From an uncultured Methanobrevibacter sp. (lineage in GTDB: Archaea > Methanobacteriota > Methanobacteria > Methanobacteriales > Methanobacteriaceae), in assembly GCF_902764455.1 (NCBI RefSeq), contig NZ_CACWVY010000001.1, forward strand, positions 1 to 64,000: a DNA stretch of 64,000 bases. Direction: 5' to 3'. The notes beneath the pieces were generated by a model. The model searched no databases. It was given only the letters and a program-made list of their open reading frames with translations, and was not told the DNA's origin. The position numbers and the translations under genes are program-made. Shown here in pieces: positions 5,052 through 40,592 of the stretch; the stretch's first letter is position 1, and each line of letters opens with the position of its first letter.

Positions 5052-5918
5052 TTAGTAATGACTTTGTGGAGTCATTCCCAAATGATGATCTTCGCTTTTC
5101 TTACCAGGTATTCCATAAGCATCTGCTCTGCATTGAGTACATGCTCTAAATACAGGTATAATCTCTTCAACTTGTTCTCTGACACTTTCCATCATGGAAC
5201 AGTCAGGACGTGAATAATGTTTCATCTTAGCTAAAGGAATTAACGGCAAGATATTCATTAAAGAAGCACCGCGTTTTTTAACTTCCTTTGCAATCTCAAC
5301 GATATGTTCATCATTCAATCCCGGAATTAAAACGGAATTAACTTTTACAACCATGCCATTGGCTGCTGCTTTTTCAACACCATCCAATTGATTTTTGATT
5401 AGAATATTGACTGCATCATAGCCTTTATAGATTTTTCCCTCGTATTTAATGAAAGAATAAATATCAACAGCAATGTCCGGATCGATTGCATTTATTGTTA
5501 CAGTAACAGAATTTACTCCAAGTTCTGCAAGTTTATCTGCATATTTTGGAAGTAAAAGCCCATTAGTACTCATACATTTAATTAAATCAGGCTGCTCTTT
5601 TGCTAATTTTTCAAAAAATTCAAAAGTTTCTTCGTTAGCAAGAGAATCACCAGGACCTGCAACACCTACAACTGAAATAGGACCTTCTGCAGTTACATCA
5701 TTAACATGTTTTATTGCGGCATCAGCATCCATAACACAGCTTGCAACACCCGGCCTGTCTTCTTCATTGTTAATATCTCTTGTACAGAAGTTACAAAAGA
5801 TATTACATTTTGGTGCAACAGGCACATGTGCTCTTCCTACTTTATCATGCATTTTTTCATTAAAACATGGATGTGCTTTTGTTATGTGTGCGAATCTTGA
5901 ACCTTTATGCTCAGCCAT
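5052..5918 (-). CDS. nifB: NifB-type radical SAM protein (FeS-carbide cluster synthase)
   Basis: NifB fuses two [4Fe-4S] units with a SAM-derived carbide to give the [8Fe-9S-C] L-cluster. From the ATG at 5918 the protein has 288 residues. HPCF at 16-19 and a C-terminal CTQC (260-263) carry the extra cluster ligands, and the radical SAM CX3CX2C is C38, C42 and C45. There is no C-terminal NifX domain, as in other archaeal NifB. A longer open frame starts at 5969, but 5918 is preceded by GGAAGTGAT and matches the family N-terminus. The gene lies 71 bp after mmp17 with its own TATA box. No nitrogenase structural genes are in the window, so a role in the methyl-coenzyme M reductase activation complex, which contains L-type clusters, is the best reading. 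Confidence 0.93.
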   Translation of the reverse strand: MAEHKGSRFAHITKAHPCFNEKMHDKVGRAHVPVAPKCNIFCNFCTRDINNEEDRPGVASCVMDADAAIKHVNDVTAEGPISVVGVAGPGDSLANEETFEFFEKLAKEQPDLIKCMSTNGLLLPKYADKLAELGVNSVTVTINAIDPDIAVDIYSFIKYEGKIYKGYDAVNILIKNQLDGVEKAAANGMVVKVNSVLIPGLNDEHIVEIAKEVKKRGASLMNILPLIPLAKMKHYSRPDCSMMESVREQVEEIIPVFRACTQCRADAYGIPGKKSEDHHLGMTPQSHY

Positions 5919-5960
5919 ACTATCACTTCCCTTCATATAACATCTGTTAATTTGTATTGA

Positions 5961-5985
5961 TACGAACAATTATATAAACTTTTCT
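5961..5985 (-). promoter_or_regulatory. nifB TATA promoter
   Basis: On the minus strand GAAAAGTTTATATAATTG contains a purine-rich BRE-like stretch followed by TTTATATA (plus-strand 5971-5978). It is about 55 bp before the nifB ATG, giving a predicted leader of roughly 25-30 nt that includes the ribosome binding site. This suggests nifB can be transcribed independently of the mmp genes upstream. Confidence 0.55.
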
Positions 5986-5989
5986 ATAT

Positions 5990-6544
5990 TTATCCGTTTA
6001 ATTCAGATATATATTCATTAGCTTTTTCTATCCATGCATCCTTGATTAACTCATCAGTAGCCACTACAGTTACAATATCTTCAGTGGACATGTCTTTAAT
6101 GATTTTAAAACCTTCAGGCAATATTCTAAATATTGCATCGTAAATTCTCCTTTGTAAATTGGAATGAGGATCATCAATAACAATGGTTTTCAAATCTACA
6201 TGGTCGCCTGCAATTTCGAGCTGATACCTGTTCGGCTGATAAATTTCATCTCTTGAAAATCTTCTCCACAACTGTTTTAAAATGTTCGGGAGATAATTTT
6301 CGTTATCAACAATAATACGAGTAATATCATCTTCTTTAACATAGCTAAGATTAGCAACATCTTCAAATGTAACCACACTTGAAGTTTTCTTCATTTTAAT
6401 AGCTAAGACAAATACAGGATCATCAGGATTTACATAAGCTCTCAAATCATCAACGGCAGCTCCCAAAACCAAATCCTGAAATATCTGCTTGATGATGATT
6501 TCATAAACTTCTGCACCTCTTTCATCATAGCATTCAACTAACAT
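5990..6544 (-). CDS. Methanogenesis marker protein 17 (Mmp17)
   Basis: Mmp17 is conserved in methanogens and is a component of the complex (with McrC, Mmp3, Mmp7 and the A2 ATPase) that reductively activates the nickel of F430 in methyl-coenzyme M reductase. This copy has 184 residues, the normal size, with no signal peptide or membrane segment. Recognition rests on the overall sequence, including the N-terminal VECYDERGAEVYE and the central WRRFSRDEIYQPNRY. It is the fifth gene of a minus-strand series, 18 bp after mmp15, with AAGGGTTGAT as ribosome binding site. Confidence 0.9.
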   Translation of the reverse strand: MLVECYDERGAEVYEIIIKQIFQDLVLGAAVDDLRAYVNPDDPVFVLAIKMKKTSSVVTFEDVANLSYVKEDDITRIIVDNENYLPNILKQLWRRFSRDEIYQPNRYQLEIAGDHVDLKTIVIDDPHSNLQRRIYDAIFRILPEGFKIIKDMSTEDIVTVVATDELIKDAWIEKANEYISELNG

Positions 6545-6562
6545 TTTATCAACCCTTAATAA

Positions 6563-7804
6563 TTATTTGTCATCTTGTCTGTGTCCCATTCCTGATACTA
6601 AAAGAGCTGCTCCTACAGCACCGATATGTTGAGAATATTCAGGAACAATAACTTCAATTCCACCTAAAGTTTCACTTACCGCTTCAACAAGACCTGAAAT
6701 TAAACTTGTTCCTCCAACTTGGATTAAAGGTTCACGAATATCAATTTCCTGAAGTTGCTGTTCATAAACCTGTTCAGATACTGAATGACATGCTGCAGCT
6801 GCTACATCAGCTTTGGAACCTCCTGCCGCAAGGGTGGTAACAAGATCCTGAATACCAAATACGATACAATATGAATTCAACATTGCTTTTCTCCAGTCAC
6901 CCTGAACTGCCAAAGGACCCAATTCAGTAATGTCAACATCCAGCCTACGGGAAGTCATGTCCAAAAATCTTCCAGATGCTCCTGCACAGATACCACCCAT
7001 GGTAAAGTTATCCGGAATACCGTTATTTACAGTAATTACCTTGTTATCCATACCTCCGATATCCAATACAGTAGCTTCACCTTTCTGACAGTCTGCAAGA
7101 TATACTGCACCTTTTGCATTAACTGACAATTCTTCTTGAATAAGTTCAGCCTTGAATTCCTGACCCATGGTAAATCTACCGTAACCTGTGGTTCCAATAC
7201 CATCAAGGTCATCCCAGTCATAATCTGTTTGTCCGAATGCTTCTGCAGCGGCTGTTTTTGCAGATTCAATGATGTCTTTGGTGGATGTCCAACCGGTACC
7301 GATAACCTCATTGTTTTCCATGAGCACTGCTTTTGTAGTTGTTGAACCTGAGTCAAGACCAAGAGTAAGACCTTCTTGTTTTTCACGAGCAAGAATGCTT
7401 CTACGAGTTACAGTAGTAGCCAATGCTTCCATACGGATGAATAGTTCATCAGCTTTTGTTCTTTCAGTGAATGAGTAAGTAACTACTGGAATACGAGTAT
7501 TATTCTGGATAAAACGTCTGACTTCATTTCTGACCAATGCTGCTTCTGCACATCTAAAACAGGTTGCAATAAATACTGCATCAGGTTTGGACCTGCCTTC
7601 AACAATAGCCATAGCTCTTGCAATCATTAATTTTAAGCTTGAACTTTGAGCTGAAAATCCGAATTTTTCATATGATTCATCAATATAATCCAAATCGATT
7701 TCAGGAAGAACAATTTCTGCACCAAACTTATTTGCTGCCTTTTCAATTTCCTTTTGAATTCCACTATATTCAGTTCCACATGAAACTAAAGCAATTTTAA
7801 CCAT
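6563..7804 (-). CDS. Methanogenesis marker protein 15 (Mmp15), HgdC/BadF-type ATPase
   Basis: A 413-residue methanogen marker with an N-terminal domain of about 140 residues (cysteines in ATCFRC, 80-85) joined to an ASKHA ATPase of the BadF/HgdC activator family. The ATPase has phosphate loop 1 DSGSTTTKA at 151-159, phosphate loop 2 LDIGG at 247-251 and an adenosine-type GGTS at 364-367. C273 ([11 protein letters not shown]) and C313 (NSYCIVFG) sit where HgdC-type activators bind the [4Fe-4S] cluster at the dimer interface. In those relatives ATP hydrolysis drives a low-potential electron onto a partner. Its exact role in methanogens is not established. A GGAGG site lies 7 nt before the ATG and it follows mmp5 by 2 bp. 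Confidence 0.92.
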
Positions 7805-7806
7805 TC

Positions 7807-8262
7807 TTATTCCTCCTCAGTAGTTTCTTCAAGGGAATCTACAAATTCGTTAATTTCATTTACCATAACATATGTTTCATCTTGATTAGTAGGATAATTA
7901 AGTTCCAATACAGGAATACCTTTATTTCTAAGTAAAAATATAGATAATTCGTTAGTCCTGGCACAACCGATACATCCAAATCCGTAAGGAGCACCATCAA
8001 CAACAATTGCTGCTTCAGCTTCATCTATAATCGGTCCGATAATAGCCATTCTTCCACGAACCCCTGACGGAACCTCAATAGCTGCATATTTAAGTCCTTT
8101 AATCGGATCTTCTTCAGTAATGTTCATTGGAGGAGAATCAATCTCCGGATCTTTAATCTTCTGCCTAATTTGTTTTTGTAAAACTAAAGGAGTGTGACCT
8201 TTCCTTTCAAGTAAATCTGCCAAAATTAATGAATTTGGAGGATAAACTGCAATTTTAACCAT
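7807..8262 (-). CDS. Methanogenesis marker protein 5 (Mmp5)
   Basis: Methanogen marker family of unassigned biochemical role. The protein has about 151 residues from the ATG at 8262. That start is preferred over the upstream ATG at 8274 because GGGTGA precedes it at normal spacing and relatives begin [14 protein letters not shown] motif at 97-100, followed by [15 protein letters not shown], suggests metal or iron-sulfur binding. It sits between mmp6 (13 bp) and mmp15 (2 bp), so it is almost certainly cotranscribed with them. A function linked to methyl-coenzyme M reductase activation or cofactor handling is inferred from this company only. Confidence 0.88.
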
Positions 8263-8275
8263 ATTTTCACCCATA

Positions 8276-8743
8276 TTATTTATTTTCTAAACATTCATCC
8301 ATAATTTTTTTAAATTCGTCAACATCAACCGGTTTTTTCTCTTCAAGCTCAACCTCTTTAGGATTTTCCAAAGCTTCAGAAACAAAACCGAGTATACGGT
8401 ATTCCTTTTCCATTTGGTGGAATCCTTCCCTAGGACCAAATCTATGACCTCTGCATCTTCTAGGATCACCAGGAGCAAAACCTCTTTCCTTTGTGAAAAT
8501 GTGGTTTGGATCGAGTTTTCTTATCTCTTCAATAGCTTTATAGACATCTTCACTTTTTCCACTTATCATAGACCCATAACAAGTGTTCTTTATTGTAAGA
8601 GGCAAACCAAGCATATGAAATTCACTTACAATCTCCTGTTCACTTACATGAGCTCCAGGCCCAATAAATATCATACGAGTAATTACATCCGGGTCCCAAT
8701 CTTCCTTACCCAAATCAGGACTCATTGTTAGATTCTGTGACAT
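8276..8743 (-). CDS. Methanogenesis marker protein 6 (Mmp6)
   Basis: A 155-residue methanogen marker of unknown biochemical role, recognised by the [16 protein letters not shown] segment near residue 23 and the basic [16 protein letters not shown] near 90. There is one conserved-looking cysteine in each half and no membrane segment. The start overlaps the end of mmp3 by 29 bp, with GAAGGAG ribosome binding site 9-10 nt before the ATG, indicating translational coupling within the mmp3-6-5-15-17 series. Confidence 0.88.
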
Positions 8744-10262
8744 ATACTACAACTCCTTCTTTTAATTCTTCAAGAGCATCATAATCTGAAACAATATCAC
8801 CAATAATATTAGTCGCTTCAAAATTTTCTGCAGTAGGACCAAATTCAAAATTGTCTTCGAATCTGATACCTATTAAACCTGCACTTTTTGAAGCCATGTT
8901 TGTAATACCGATTTGACCTCTTATAACCTTATCGACAGGATTATTTTCAGGGATTAAACCTTTAGCTGATTTCTTATCCCCTTCAAACATAACAATATGC
9001 ATTCCAGGTACTGCAAAATGGACTTTTATTTTTCCTACAGGATTTTCTAAAAGACCAGATAAGCGTTTGAAATATTTAACAGACCTTGGTGCATCATCTG
9101 AAAACTTAATTTTACATAAATCATCTTCACTGATAGCTTTAGTGATTACACTGCCCTCTTTTAGGATATCTATTGTATGTTTCGGATTTTGTTCGACGAT
9201 TATTGCATCATCATCAATGATTCCATCAATCAAATGCTCAATACCTGCAGCAGACAATAATTCTGTAGCTTCTTTTTGAGTTTTGTTCAATAACATCAGC
9301 CTTTGTCTTTCGGATTTGACAGTTATGAAATCGTTTTCCTTTGCAATATCGATGATTTCCATACCGTTTATAATTTTTCCAACAGTAGTATGGTTCGGAG
9401 TTAAAACCCTATTTTCACGATATACGAAGAGTTTTCCGACACCAACACCATTATTTCTGACAGTGATTGTTCCCCTGAGTCTTTGGGTAGTATCCTCTTT
9501 AGGTTTTTCAATACCTTCCAAGTCATAAAAACCTATGAAAGATTCACTATCATAAGAAACTTTGATTCTGCCGTCTTTAATCAGTGAAAATAAATGTTCC
9601 ACACAGACAGGAGATTCCTCATCAATATCAAAAGATATGTAGGTATACAACTCATTTCCTTCTTCCAATATTGTATTTAAATCAGATACTGAAGCGCTAT
9701 CGGTAGTTGTACTTCTTTCTATAATCGGCTCAACACCTGTTACACTGTCATCATCTGTGAGGTTTTCCAATGTTTTTTTACCTCCAATGACACGAGCAAA
9801 AATACCCTTGTTATATGGCGGCACACTGTAAACATTAGTGGTATTTTCCTTAAGCATTATTAAATGAGTAGACTCATTACTAAAACTGGATAAACTTAAA
9901 ACAACATCTCCTTCATAATATTTGTATTCTTCAGAAGTCGGTTCCAAATCAGTTACAACAGGACCAACAGCCACTTCAGTTGGAGTGGACCATCTGATAT
10001 TCAAGTCAACAAAATCTTCATATTGACTTTTCCATACGTCAACCAAAGGTTTTGCTTCATCAGATTCATCCAATTGAATGATTATAGAACCCTTATTTGT
10101 TTTAATTTTATACTTGCTTATATTTTTCTCAAGTTCCTTTTTTCCCTTAATCAAACAAACAATACTACCAGGAGTATATGGCGCATTAGTTTCATCAATC
10201 ACATCCTGAATTGAGGAACCTTCTGCCACATTCATTTCTTCTCCATTAATTTTAATTAACAT
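8715..10262 (-). CDS. Methanogenesis marker protein 3 (Mmp3)
   Basis: First gene of the marker operon. Mmp3 is part of the ATP-dependent methyl-coenzyme M reductase activation complex. The 515-residue protein opens with a ThiS/ubiquitin-like stretch (residues 1-60), continues into the central region typical of this family, and ends with cyclophilin-like segments around GKIKVHFAVPGMHIVMFEG. AGGAG precedes the ATG, and the upstream gap holds divergent TATA-like sequences shared with a nuclease gene. It is full length and intact. I saw no clear cluster-binding cysteine set, so any cluster it holds would be liganded together with partners. Confidence 0.9.
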   Translation of the reverse strand: MLIKINGEEMNVAEGSSIQDVIDETNAPYTPGSIVCLIKGKKELEKNISKYKIKTNKGSIIIQLDESDEAKPLVDVWKSQYEDFVDLNIRWSTPTEVAVGPVVTDLEPTSEEYKYYEGDVVLSLSSFSNESTHLIMLKENTTNVYSVPPYNKGIFARVIGGKKTLENLTDDDSVTGVEPIIERSTTTDSASVSDLNTILEEGNELYTYISFDIDEESPVCVEHLFSLIKDGRIKVSYDSESFIGFYDLEGIEKPKEDTTQRLRGTITVRNNGVGVGKLFVYRENRVLTPNHTTVGKIINGMEIIDIAKENDFITVKSERQRLMLLNKTQKEATELLSAAGIEHLIDGIIDDDAIIVEQNPKHTIDILKEGSVITKAISEDDLCKIKFSDDAPRSVKYFKRLSGLLENPVGKIKVHFAVPGMHIVMFEGDKKSAKGLIPENNPVDKVIRGQIGITNMASKSAGLIGIRFEDNFEFGPTAENFEATNIIGDIVSDYDALEELKEGVVVYVTESNNES

Positions 10263-10388: not shown

Positions 10389-11126
10389 ATGACCATTACA
10401 AAAAAACATGTTTTTTCTTTAGTGATAATATTCGTTTTGGCCCTTGGAGCTATTTCAATAGCCAGTGCTTATACAGGAACCGGTTTTTCACACAGCATTC
10501 CAAGTTCCAAATACTATGACATGTCTGCATCAGACATTCTAAGTCAATATTCCGACAGCGAGTGTCACGTTGAAGAAAGTGCGGTTTGTACTAATGTGGT
10601 TGATGGAGACACAATTTATTTAGATAATGGTAAGAAGGTTCGTTTTGTCGGTGTAAACACTCCCGAAAGAGGTGTTGAGGGCTACATTACCTCCAAGAAT
10701 TTCGTTCAGAAACTATGTCTGAACAAGGAAGTCGGACTGGACATCGACGATAGAAAACACAATGACAAATACGGACGTACATTGGCTGTCGTTATTGTTG
10801 ATGGAAAAAACGTTAATGAAATGCTTTTAAAAGAAGGGCTTGCAGAAATTATGTACATGCCTCCAAGTGAATTTTACCCTTATGACTGGGCTGGAAGCAA
10901 TACCCATGTAGCCGACACACACAGTTCATCATCTTCATCAAGCAATTCTTCAAGCGATACGTCATCAGCTTCCGGAAATTATGTTGGAAATTCAAACAGC
11001 GGAAAATTCCACATTTCAAGCTGCGGAAGTGTGAGCAAAATGTCTGAAGGCAACAAAGTATTTTTCTCAAGCAGGGATGAAGCGATAAATCAGGGATACG
11101 TACCCTGCAAAATATGCAATCCCTAA
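10389..11126 (+). CDS. Secreted thermonuclease-like (SNase) protein
   Basis: A 245-residue extracellular nuclease. Residues 1-27 form a signal peptide (KK, long hydrophobic core, then ASA-Y). The staphylococcal-nuclease domain spans about 65-160: VDGDT at 71-75 and candidate catalytic residues R85, E93 (VNTPE) and R130 (KYGRTLA). A Ser-rich linker (178-195) leads to a C-terminal metal-binding-like HisxxxCys...CysxxCys segment (H208, C212, C240, C243), also found at the end of bacterial SNase proteins. It probably degrades DNA or RNA outside the cell. The bacterial-type architecture suggests acquisition from gut bacteria. A strong AAGGAGG site precedes the ATG, and a T-run follows the stop. 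Confidence 0.9.
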   Translation: MTITKKHVFSLVIIFVLALGAISIASAYTGTGFSHSIPSSKYYDMSASDILSQYSDSECHVEESAVCTNVVDGDTIYLDNGKKVRFVGVNTPERGVEGYITSKNFVQKLCLNKEVGLDIDDRKHNDKYGRTLAVVIVDGKNVNEMLLKEGLAEIMYMPPSEFYPYDWAGSNTHVADTHSSSSSSSNSSSDTSSASGNYVGNSNSGKFHISSCGSVSKMSEGNKVFFSSRDEAINQGYVPCKICNP

Positions 11127-11143
11127 TCTTTTCTTTTTTTTAA
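11127..11143 (+). terminator. T-rich terminator after the nuclease gene
   Basis: Immediately after the nuclease stop codon there is TCTTTTCTTTTTTTTAATTT, a typical archaeal U-rich terminator. It overlaps the end of the convergent DUF4013 gene by a few bases. Confidence 0.55.
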
Positions 11144-11931
11144 TTTAAATATTTTAACTGCTGGACTTCCCTATTTAATTTGTCCAAATTGCCTTCTCTT
11201 ACAGCAATATTTGAATATAACAATCCTAATGAGTAGTTAGCTATACTTTCCAGTGTTGGAATGATAACACAGAAGTAAATTAAAAATCCAACATATGGAA
11301 TTGACATTACCAATGATGAAATAGCTGAAACGACAACCATACATATCACCATAAGAATTAGCCATTTAATAATGTTTTTTAAACCAATATTTTTAATATC
11401 CAAAACAACTTTATGCATCTTTAATGCTTCAGACAGACTGTTCAAATAAGCAAGTCTAGCCTTTGCGAAGAATAATAAGAACTCAAATAAGAGATATATG
11501 ACTAAAATTATAATAAAAGTTAAACCCAGAGTCAGCAGAAATTCTATAACCTTTAAGTTTTTAAGAAGATCAATGCTTGAAACTCCCAATGTAGAAAGAG
11601 CAATAAAAAAAACCAAAGCAGGAACAATCATATATACAATTCTCAATACCCATAAACGAAGACTGTTATAGACATTCCTTGTAAAACTTATGGACGGGAA
11701 CATGGAGGATTCATTCAACCCGAAATCAATCATTGAAAACATATATCCAGGTGCAATCAGAATGAATAAAAAGAATGCAAATACTCCAATAATAGTAACA
11801 TATCTGTTGTCAAATATTATTCCAATTGGTATAATAGCCGATAAAATAAATATAATAAATAGAATAGGCAGTTTTTTAATATTTCTAAAAGGATATCTGA
11901 ATGAATTTGATATTATTTTGCCTACGTCCAT
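11140..11931 (-). CDS. DUF4013 family membrane protein
   Basis: A 263-residue integral membrane protein of the DUF4013 family, common in Methanobrevibacter and related archaea and of unknown function. After an amphipathic N-terminus (SFRYPFRNIKKLP) there are hydrophobic segments at about 23-40, 48-68, 93-120, 132-155 and 190-235, giving around five or six membrane helices. The C-terminal 20 residues are charged and probably cytoplasmic. It lies 12 bp downstream of mmp2 and may be cotranscribed with it. No transport or enzymatic motif is visible. Confidence 0.8.
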   Translation of the reverse strand: MDVGKIISNSFRYPFRNIKKLPILFIIFILSAIIPIGIIFDNRYVTIIGVFAFFLFILIAPGYMFSMIDFGLNESSMFPSISFTRNVYNSLRLWVLRIVYMIVPALVFFIALSTLGVSSIDLLKNLKVIEFLLTLGLTFIIILVIYLLFEFLLFFAKARLAYLNSLSEALKMHKVVLDIKNIGLKNIIKWLILMVICMVVVSAISSLVMSIPYVGFLIYFCVIIPTLESIANYSLGLLYSNIAVREGNLDKLNREVQQLKYLN

Positions 11932-11943
11932 AAAATCACATCA

Positions 11944-12918
11944 TTATTTAAATATGAATACAGGATTAATATTCTGGTTAAATACTTCTGCCTGCTGGTC
12001 TTTGTAATTTAATATCATATTGTCGGAGTCAGTTACCTCACCAACCACTTCTGCTTCAATAGAATATTTCGCCAAATATTGTTTAATGAAATCACATTTA
12101 TCCTCTTCAGCAGTGAATACAAATCCTGAACCAGGATAAGAGCGAAGCCAATCCACCCATTCAACACTTTCATTTCTTGGAATGTCTTCAAGATTAACGA
12201 CTGCACCCTTGTGTGATGTTTCAAGAAGCATTTCAAGAGTTCCAAGAATTCCAGGATTTGAAATGTCCTTTCCGGATTTAATATAATCATTTTCAGCAAG
12301 GTATTGGACTGCAGTAATCTGGTCTCGAACCAGCTGTGCATCCTTATCGTAAGTGGTATCCCAGTTCAGAGCGAACATTTCATGAGGCTTGCCGTCAAGA
12401 TCTATTGCCACTATTACTTTATCGCCAACTTCAGCTCCAAAACTTGTTATGATTTTGTCTTTTTGCGCAATACCTGCAATAGCTACACCCAACGAGTCGA
12501 CTTCACCATCAGGATGCAGGTGGCCTCCCACCATAGGAACACCGAACTTAAGACATCCGTCTTTAATTCCATTCAATAAATCTTCATAAATCTCATCATT
12601 GCTTATTGACATTATGTTTACCATTGCAAGAGGTTTTCCGCCCATTGCAGCTATATCATTAACATTTACAAGTACAGAACAGTATCCTGCCCAATACGGA
12701 TTTACATTCATGATATCGCCCCAAATTCCATCTGCGGCAATTAACAATACCTGATTGTTTCCTATGTCAATAGCTGAAGCATCATCTCCTATATCAATGA
12801 CAACATCTCCTGAAACATTATAAGATTCCTTTAAAAGAGATATTACATTATCAATGGAGCTTTTACGTGACACTCCTTTAAATTCTTGAATTTCCTTAAC
12901 GAGATTTTTAAAATTCAA
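11944..12918 (-). CDS. Methanogenesis marker protein 2 (Mmp2), AIR-synthase-like
   Basis: A 324-residue methanogen marker of the PurM/SelD/HypE/ThiL superfamily of ATP-binding enzymes. The superfamily signatures are clear: GDDASAI at 44-50, [12 protein letters not shown] at 85-96 and GGHLHPD at 131-137 (GGxTxPD in relatives). Family members activate a substrate by phosphorylation or dehydrate an amide with ATP. The substrate of Mmp2 is not established. It is full length, with an N-terminal extension before the AIRS domain as in orthologues. It is followed by a membrane protein gene and preceded by a DUF2117 gene 17 bp away, so the three plus nob1 look like one operon. Confidence 0.9.
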
Positions 12919-37444: not shown

Positions 37445-37744
37445 TTAACCTCCTCCTTCAGCAACACTGGAATCCATTTGAATGTTTTCCATTTTTTCTG
37501 CTTTTTCTTTTAATGCCTCGATATCCAGTTCATTATTGCCGTCATCATCAAATCTTTTCTTCAAGTCTTTTTCATCGAGCAATTCAACCAAATCTGAGCG
37601 ATACCACAAATCAGTTTTATCGATTTTGACCCAATCAACACCATCAGTGGTTTTAATCTTTAAAACCTTGCCGATTGTGCCTGTATCAACATATCTGACA
37701 TGAGAATCAAGAGTAATCTCTTTATCTCTTGCATCAAAAGCCAT
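37445..37744 (-). CDS. DUF2098 family protein
   Basis: A 99-residue protein of the DUF2098 family, known from methanogens and without assigned function. The N-terminal half (SHVRYVDTGTIGKVLKIK...WVKIDKTDLWYR) looks like a small SH3-like barrel. The C-terminal half is a charged helix ending in GGG. It follows a PRC-barrel gene by 17 bp and converges on hel308. Confidence 0.85.
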   Translation of the reverse strand: MAFDARDKEITLDSHVRYVDTGTIGKVLKIKTTDGVDWVKIDKTDLWYRSDLVELLDEKDLKKRFDDDGNNELDIEALKEKAEKMENIQMDSSVAEGGG

Positions 37745-39803: not shown

Positions 39804-39854
39804 ATGTTTATATACTTGTTCGTATAAATACTAACTAATTAAGAGAGTGGTAAT

Positions 39855-40592
39855 ATGGTTACACACAACATAAGAAATTCAAAAGATTTAGCAGGTTATA
39901 TTAACTATACTAATTTAAACAATATGATTAGCGAAAGTGAAATGAGAGAATTTTTAGAAAAAGCAAAAGGAATGAACTTTAATTCTGTAATTGTCTCTCC
40001 CACATATGTTCCATTAGCTAAAGAAATGTTAAAAGACACTAATGTAAAAATAGGAAGTGTAGTTGGATTTCCTTTAGGTTTTGAAAATACCGAAACCAAA
40101 ATTGCAGAAGCAACTTCACTTGTTGAAAACGGAGCAGATGAAATAGACGTGGTTATCAATTTGAGCTATCTTAAAAATGAAAACTACGATCTGCTCGAAA
40201 ATGAAATAACTCAGATTAAAGAAGCAATCGGAGATAAAGTATTGAAAGTTATTATTGAAACAAAAGTGCTTGAAGATTATCAAAAGGCAAATGCATCCAA
40301 ACTTGCACAGAAAGCGGGTGCGGATTTCATCAAAACCTCAACAGGATTTGTATCTCCAAATCATATCTACGAGAATGTTAATGACATTAATATCTTCCTG
40401 AAACATGCACCAAAAATCAAAATTGAAATTTCAGGAGGAATAACCGACTATAAAAATGCAAATCAAATCATTACTGCAGGAGCAGATAAAATTGGAAGCG
40501 ATTACGGTTATGAAATCGTCAAAAGATACAAAGACTTAAGAGAAAACACACAAGTAACACCAAAACCTATCACATTAACCAAAAAAGATTAA
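39855..40592 (+). CDS. deoC: Deoxyribose-phosphate aldolase
   Basis: Cleaves 2-deoxyribose 5-phosphate to acetaldehyde and glyceraldehyde 3-phosphate during deoxynucleoside catabolism. The (beta/alpha)8 protein of 245 residues has D98 (EIDVVIN), the proton-relay KVIIET (131-136) and the Schiff-base lysine K160 in FIKTSTGF. A TATA-like TTTATATA lies about 45 bp upstream. It stands alone after elp3, with its own promoter, and ends at a 10-bp hairpin. Confidence 0.95.
   Translation: MVTHNIRNSKDLAGYINYTNLNNMISESEMREFLEKAKGMNFNSVIVSPTYVPLAKEMLKDTNVKIGSVVGFPLGFENTETKIAEATSLVENGADEIDVVINLSYLKNENYDLLENEITQIKEAIGDKVLKVIIETKVLEDYQKANASKLAQKAGADFIKTSTGFVSPNHIYENVNDINIFLKHAPKIKIEISGGITDYKNANQIITAGADKIGSDYGYEIVKRYKDLRENTQVTPKPITLTKKD

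Follow-up and report, generated by a model that had tools for sequence, protein, structure and literature searches.

A nifB-linked mmp locus of Methanobrevibacter and a possible role for archerase-type Mmp15 in methyl-coenzyme M reductase activation

Introduction

How the nickel of coenzyme F430 is reduced in methanogens is a long-standing question, and nearly all methane of biological origin comes from the enzyme that carries it, methyl-coenzyme M reductase (MCR). The locus studied here occupies positions 5052-10262 of a 64,000-nucleotide window (the whole stretch of DNA analysed; assembly GCF_902764455.1, contig NZ_CACWVY010000001.1) from a Methanobrevibacter genome (G000; 2.75 Mb, 98% complete), whose NifB is nearest to those of Methanobrevibacter. 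It raises the question of why nifB stands directly behind a block of mmp genes, and of what the less characterised genes of that block contribute; many non-nitrogen-fixing gut methanogens likewise retain NifB beside mmp genes. We consider it likely that the locus is best explained as an MCR-activation locus, in which NifB would supply iron-sulfur clusters and Mmp15 would deliver electrons.

According to Ramirez-Amador et al. 2025 (PMC12176620), the purified activation complex contains McrC, Mmp7, Mmp17, Mmp3, A2 and a DUF2098 protein; McrC and Mmp7 supply the ligands of its three [8Fe-9S-C]-like clusters, of which the outermost lies where Mmp7 meets Mmp17. The complex is slow and requires Ti(III) citrate, with no physiological donor, and the authors presume that additional Mmps are required. 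The same paper reports that nifB comes next after the mmp cluster MTBMA c04360-c04410 of Methanothermobacter marburgensis, considers NifB to be probably involved in making the 8Fe clusters of the complex and describes NifB as essential in methanogens with or without nitrogenase. Another function for methanogen NifB has also been suggested by Lie et al. 2022 (PMC8809328). The link between NifB and MCR activation, together with the gene arrangement, is thus already published for M. marburgensis; added here are a quantified account of mmp-nifB conservation in several distinct gene pairings, its limits, and a role for Mmp15 that is specific enough to be tested.

Organisation of the locus

All six genes lie on the minus strand, in the order listed. 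Each is named by its own NCBIfam model, with which Pfam agrees, confirming the placement of nifB directly behind mmp3-mmp6-mmp5-mmp15-mmp17 made in the initial annotation of this DNA.

8715-10262, minus strand: mmp3, MCR activation complex subunit (TIGR03268, E 3e-179; 3.9e-93 to chain J of the cryo-electron microscopy entries 8s7v, 8s7x and 9h1l)
8276-8743, minus strand: mmp6, DUF2102 (TIGR03272, E 5e-46; alignment of 35 proteins)
7807-8274, minus strand: mmp5, DUF2112 (TIGR03271, E 8e-72; alignment of 37; model with a predicted local distance difference test score, pLDDT, of 80)
6563-7804, minus strand: mmp15 (TIGR03286, E 4e-216; CoA_E_activ; PF01869; alignment with 1hux; 37-sequence alignment; AlphaFold2 model and Foldseek search)
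5990-6544, minus strand: mmp17, MCR activation complex subunit (TIGR03291, E 1e-50; 2.5e-20 to chain G of 8s7v)
5052-5918, minus strand: nifB, predicted radical S-adenosylmethionine (SAM) [8Fe-9S-C] cluster synthase, short form without a NifX domain (TIGR01290, 3e-91; 5.6e-140 to 7bi7)

The genes are closely packed: mmp3 and mmp6 overlap, and the following gaps are 1 bp (mmp6/mmp5), 2 bp (mmp5/mmp15), 18 bp (mmp15/mmp17) and 71 bp (mmp17/nifB). The conserved start of mmp5 is probably ATG 8262. For nifB, ATG 5918, which lies behind the Shine-Dalgarno-like GGGAAGTGAT and yields a product of 288 aa, was chosen over TTG 5969, as it gives the length and residue numbering of Methanothermobacter NifB (7bi7).

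Mmp3 and Mmp17, annotated as components of the activation complex, are clear homologues of chains J and G of 8s7v. The accompanying statement that they belong to a complex with L-cluster-like clusters agrees with the three published 8Fe clusters, except that the ligands come from McrC and Mmp7 and not from Mmp3 or Mmp17; Mmp17 abuts the outermost cluster.

NifB in a genome without nitrogenase

A genome-wide profile search recovered a single PF00148 protein in G000 (E 4e-20) and no other protein of the NifD/K/E/N fold, whereas the NifDKEN-type PF00148 matches of nif-bearing relatives have E-values of 1e-90 to 1e-134. By inference the lone weak match is CfbD of F430 synthesis. The absence of nitrogenase genes, initially noted beside nifB, therefore holds genome-wide, and a nifHDK cluster that might have accounted for nifB was looked for through this fold without being found in G000. 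With no nitrogenase fold besides the CfbD-like protein, NifB needs another client. By our own count, 96 of 152 Methanobacteriota genomes hold exactly one PF00148 protein, and nearly all of these retain nifB.

Instead of the MCR activation complex, the main client could in principle be a reductase resembling nitrogenase or some 8Fe protein yet unknown. A gene set of this kind is present in Methanosphaera-type genomes (L020:7168-12176, also L049 and L050), where a second nifB accompanies genes for a NifH-like protein and two nitrogenase-like subunits. However, G000 has no such set, and the genomes that do have it use the separate nifB copy and retain the mmp-linked one, so that we regard this explanation as very improbable.

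The protein itself has the features expected of a cluster synthase. The SAM-cluster motif CxxxCxxC (C38, C42, C45), found in 144/144 sequences aligned, is present, as are all of the K-cluster ligands C18, H31, C115, C260 and C263 (positions in Methanothermobacter NifB from PMC9692996). The score falls below the TIGR01290 cut-off, as do the scores from all 152 Methanobacteriota genomes, the genus of the structurally proven NifB among them.

Conservation of the mmp-nifB linkage

Adjacency was scored as nifB on the same strand and at most 700 bp downstream of mmp17, in the 141 Methanobacteriota genomes with both genes among the matches listed. It was found in 131 of these 141 Methanobacteriales genomes, a frequency that cannot be due to chance. 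In the remaining 10 the two genes are mostly on different contigs; they include one genus (G132-G136) in which nifB has probably been relocated. The complete genome G128 (1,767,403 bp) at first seemed to have lost nifB, mmp15 and mmp17, but the region is a masked run of N and the loss was rejected; a 1990-residue frame at nifB of G119 was dismissed as a masking artefact.

The wider order nob1-DUF2117-mmp2-mmp3-mmp6-(DUF2111)-mmp5-mmp15-mmp17-nifB-mtnA-trm5-dph5 is syntenic across Methanobacteriales, and the adjacency within that order therefore counts as one inherited event. This, the vertical inheritance of NifB in Methanobacteriales and the promoter that nifB has of its own (see below) would suit a gene order inherited without functional meaning, in which nifB happens to stand between the mmp block and the housekeeping genes mtnA, trm5 and dph5. 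Other layouts are stronger evidence, and speak against this view. In G001 (Methanothermus-like, 1.24 Mb) the block is split, yet mmp17 and nifB remain paired, 3 bp apart, with mmp3-6-5-15 about 90 kb away; in Methanococcales the two genes are convergent (tail-to-tail) neighbours in 12/31 loci; and in 28/115 Halobacteriota loci mmp2 comes after nifB, with mmp15-nifB in one locus. Mere inheritance of order appears to us quite unlikely.

The linkage has clear limits. Gene order in the five-gene mmp block does not change between Methanobrevibacter and relatives of Methanosarcina, but in all 30 best Halobacteriota loci the block is intact without nifB behind it; adjacency, for which a survey of non-diazotrophic methanogens had been suggested, is thus no general feature of methanogens. 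Besides mmp2, no MCR-related conserved neighbour of nifB was found in Halobacteriota, where other neighbours include QueC/D/E-like genes (named by eye). Two Halobacteriota loci (L328, L329) have nifB about 10 kb downstream of an mmp3-mmp5-mmp15-mmp17 block, on the same strand. Across 197 Halobacteriota genomes NifB and Mmp15 co-occur in 120, one only is found in 4 and 11, and neither in 62, counts that come from related genomes and hence are not independent.

The lack of nitrogenase, the intact K-cluster ligands, the repeated linkage to mmp genes and the co-occurrence with Mmp15 all support the initial proposal that NifB supplies the activation complex, which we consider very likely.

Mmp15, Mmp5 and Mmp6

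Mmp15 consists of an N-terminal domain (residues 1-145), for which no Pfam match was obtained, and an archerase ATPase domain of the BcrAD/BadFG type (residues 146-403). Alignment with HgdC (1hux; E 6e-28) places C273 and C313 at HgdC C127 and C166, the ligands of its [4Fe-4S] cluster. Both are invariant in 37/37 aligned Mmp15 sequences, which come from Methanobacteriales, Halobacteriota and TACK archaea; C339, the three cysteines C9, C82 and C85 of the N-terminal domain and most nucleotide-motif residues are likewise invariant. The AlphaFold2 model (pLDDT 91) gave Foldseek target template modelling (TM) scores of 0.89-0.93 to MbdQ, HgdC and HadI, with benzoyl-CoA reductase ATPases and HgdC at TM 0.92-0.93. 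The top ten matches are all archerases (target TM 0.80-0.93), other ASKHA kinases scoring no higher than 0.7. Many Halobacteriota genomes (for example G168, G178, G208 and G299) also encode, outside the block, another Mmp15 paralogue (E about 1e-160).

Archerases harness ATP to drive electrons, one at a time, to a very low potential. Since this is the step that the purified complex lacks, as its need for Ti(III) citrate indicates, we read Mmp15 as an electron donor; whether it is an archerase-type donor to the MCR activation complex is, in our estimate, an evenly balanced matter. The initial annotation described Mmp5, Mmp6 and Mmp15 as proteins of unknown role and as candidates for cluster insertion or electron delivery. 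For Mmp15 'unknown' is too weak a description, given its family, and electron delivery is the favoured of the two roles.

A CxxC (C96/C99) is invariant in Mmp5, an alpha/beta protein. Homology to the N-terminal domain of Mmp15, which also has a CxxC in an alpha/beta fold, was considered but rejected at an hhalign probability of 10%. Mmp6 has invariant TC.G (one cysteine) and RG...D.RRCR motifs; against PDB sequences it gave only weak matches to ribosomal protein uS9 (E 0.08). The two are fused in L329:2969-3745 (259 aa; Pfam DUF2102 and DUF2112), and L328:1563-2339 is a frame matched by the same two hidden Markov models, for which reason Mmp5 and Mmp6 probably act together. In Methanosphaera-type genomes a second, diverged Mmp5 lies between mmp6 and mmp5 (L008:8127-8768, L015:6269-6874).

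In nitrogenase assembly, the clusters made by NifB require carriers. By analogy, Mmp5, Mmp6 and Mmp15 might form a cluster-insertion machine in which Mmp15 spends ATP to load NifB-made clusters into McrC and Mmp7, with Mmp5 and Mmp6 as carriers like NifX/NafY. The position of the three genes between those of the complex subunits and nifB would suit such a machine, as would the CxxC of Mmp5 and the three extra invariant cysteines of Mmp15. However, the ATPase domain of Mmp15 is specifically that of an archerase with redox-cluster ligands, not of a chaperone or insertase, Pfam detects a NifX-like domain in neither Mmp5 nor Mmp6, and most Halobacteriota have nifB away from mmp5, mmp6 and mmp15. 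We therefore think insertion unlikely, while still the most serious of the alternatives, and prefer ATP-driven electron delivery because Mmp15 belongs to the archerase (HgdC/BcrAD) family and its cluster cysteines are intact.

The nifB promoter

5971-5984, minus strand: transcription factor B recognition element (BRE)/TATA element of nifB, GAAAAGTTTATATA
5969-5952, minus strand: conserved stretch after the nifB TATA element, TTGTTCGTATCAATACAA

That nifB has a TATA box of its own, as first annotated, is supported by comparison: TTTAWATA, with at most 1 mismatch, occurs in 53/64 mmp17-nifB gaps, more than the 33 expected from shuffles, and in 41 of these 53 it starts 50-64 bp before the nifB ATG. 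On the 3' side of the box the gaps share a conserved TTTGTTCGTATcAATACAAA. An extended promoter element, TATATANTTGTTCGTATNAATAC, is common to nifB (5952-5976) and deoC (39809-39833). A nifB-specific operator in the stretch after the TATA box is unsupported, as the same element stands ahead of deoC at 39855; being shared in this way, the stretch looks like a core-promoter feature. A separate promoter may reflect a demand for clusters that differs from that for the subunits in amount or timing.

Other genes of the window

11944-12918, minus strand: mmp2, SelD/PurM-like (TIGR03267, 7e-128)
37445-37744, minus strand: DUF2098 protein (PF09871), homologous to the small protein that McrC binds within the activation complex (PMC12176620)

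In most relatives mmp2 adjoins mmp3 on its upstream side. Here two open reading frames part them (10389-11126 and 11140-11931); one encodes a secreted, staphylococcal-nuclease-like product that includes an Ada-type metal-binding domain, the other a membrane protein. In part of Halobacteriota mmp2 is instead a neighbour of nifB, which it directly follows in L186-L188, L192, L193, L196, L198, L200, L204 and others; on account of this adjacency Mmp2 (SelD/HypE-like) is a candidate for a role in 8Fe cluster supply.

Discussion

In the mechanism that we propose, NifB would build [8Fe-9S-C] (L-type) clusters for delivery to McrC and Mmp7, whose three published 8Fe clusters form an electron wire to coenzyme F430, with Mmp3 and Mmp17 as structural subunits and Mmp17 at the outermost cluster. 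Mmp15 would take one electron from ferredoxin onto a [4Fe-4S] cluster held by C273/C313 at a two-subunit interface, and might then dock near Mmp17/Mmp7, ATP hydrolysis pushing the electron low enough to make Ni(I); Mmp5 and Mmp6 could be docking or relay partners. A2 would accordingly spend ATP on opening the F430 site, and Mmp15 would spend it a second time to energise the electron. To the tentative proposal that the physiological, ATP-driven electron donor of MCR activation is Mmp15 together with Mmp5 and Mmp6, an archerase feeding a nitrogenase-type wire, so that A2 and Mmp15 jointly reach about -650 mV, we give slightly less than even weight. We found no such statement on these three proteins in the literature searched.

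Several points weigh against the combined reading. Mmp15, Mmp5 and Mmp6 were absent from the McrC co-purification (PMC12176620). NCBIfam and Pfam show no dehydratase or reductase partner gene (HgdAB/BcrBC/DCCP) in the locus beside mmp15, for which reason we call Mmp15 archerase-type and not an acyl-CoA dehydratase activase. A fold search with Mmp5 in the PDB gave no significant match. In Nezhaarchaeota an mmp3-mmp6-mmp17 block occurs with mmp15 elsewhere, so that Mmp15 is not everywhere tied to the subunits, and 4 Halobacteriota genomes with Mmp15 gave no NifB match, perhaps because they are incomplete. Finally, the window NifB has no cysteine in the loop between CxxxCxxC and RPG (C62 in MtNifB, C63 in MaNifB; residues 46-63, CTRDINNEEDRPGVASC), a residue termed strictly conserved (PMC9692996).

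The loop cysteine is missing from 78/234 NifB matches, which fall mainly into a single clade of Methanobrevibacter, Methanosphaera and their kin. Of the 78, 68 have a cysteine just behind RPG, as against 9/156 matches with the normal loop cysteine, and the simplest reading of these alignments is that the SAM-cluster plug has been relocated. As G018, a relative with NifDKEN-type genes, has the same change, NifB function is probably kept.

The proposal for Mmp15 would turn 'additional factors' into a named protein with mutable residues, and would explain the need for Ti(III) citrate. If it is true, archerases and nitrogenase-type clusters, two low-potential chemistries, are joined in one ancient machine, and there is a target in rumen and gut methanogens.

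Comparison with known systems

Compared with the archerases HgdC, HadI, BcrAD/BzdPQ/MbdPQ and DCCP-R, Mmp15 is set apart by an extra N-terminal domain of 145 residues, which holds three invariant cysteines, and by having no adjoining dehydratase/reductase partner gene; it shares with them the ASKHA ATPase fold, both [4Fe-4S] cysteines and the nucleotide motifs. The window NifB and that of Methanothermobacter thermautotrophicus (7bi7, 7jma) both have 288 residues, all K- and SAM-cluster ligands and the K1-loop Glu53, while in place of the loop cysteine the former has one about 9 residues downstream, just after RPG. Relative to the activation complex of Methanococcus maripaludis, where the activation genes are dispersed, Mmp3 and Mmp17 are clear homologues, and the window locus is without McrC, Mmp7 and A2. 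Methanothermobacter differs in possessing nitrogenase genes, and a DUF2111 gene lies between its mmp6 and mmp5; in the window mmp5 comes straight after mmp6, the genome is without nitrogenase, and the nuclease and membrane-protein genes part mmp2 from mmp3. Otherwise the locus has orthologues of the M. marburgensis genes MTBMA c04360-c04410 in an unchanged order, and NifB is interpreted alike.

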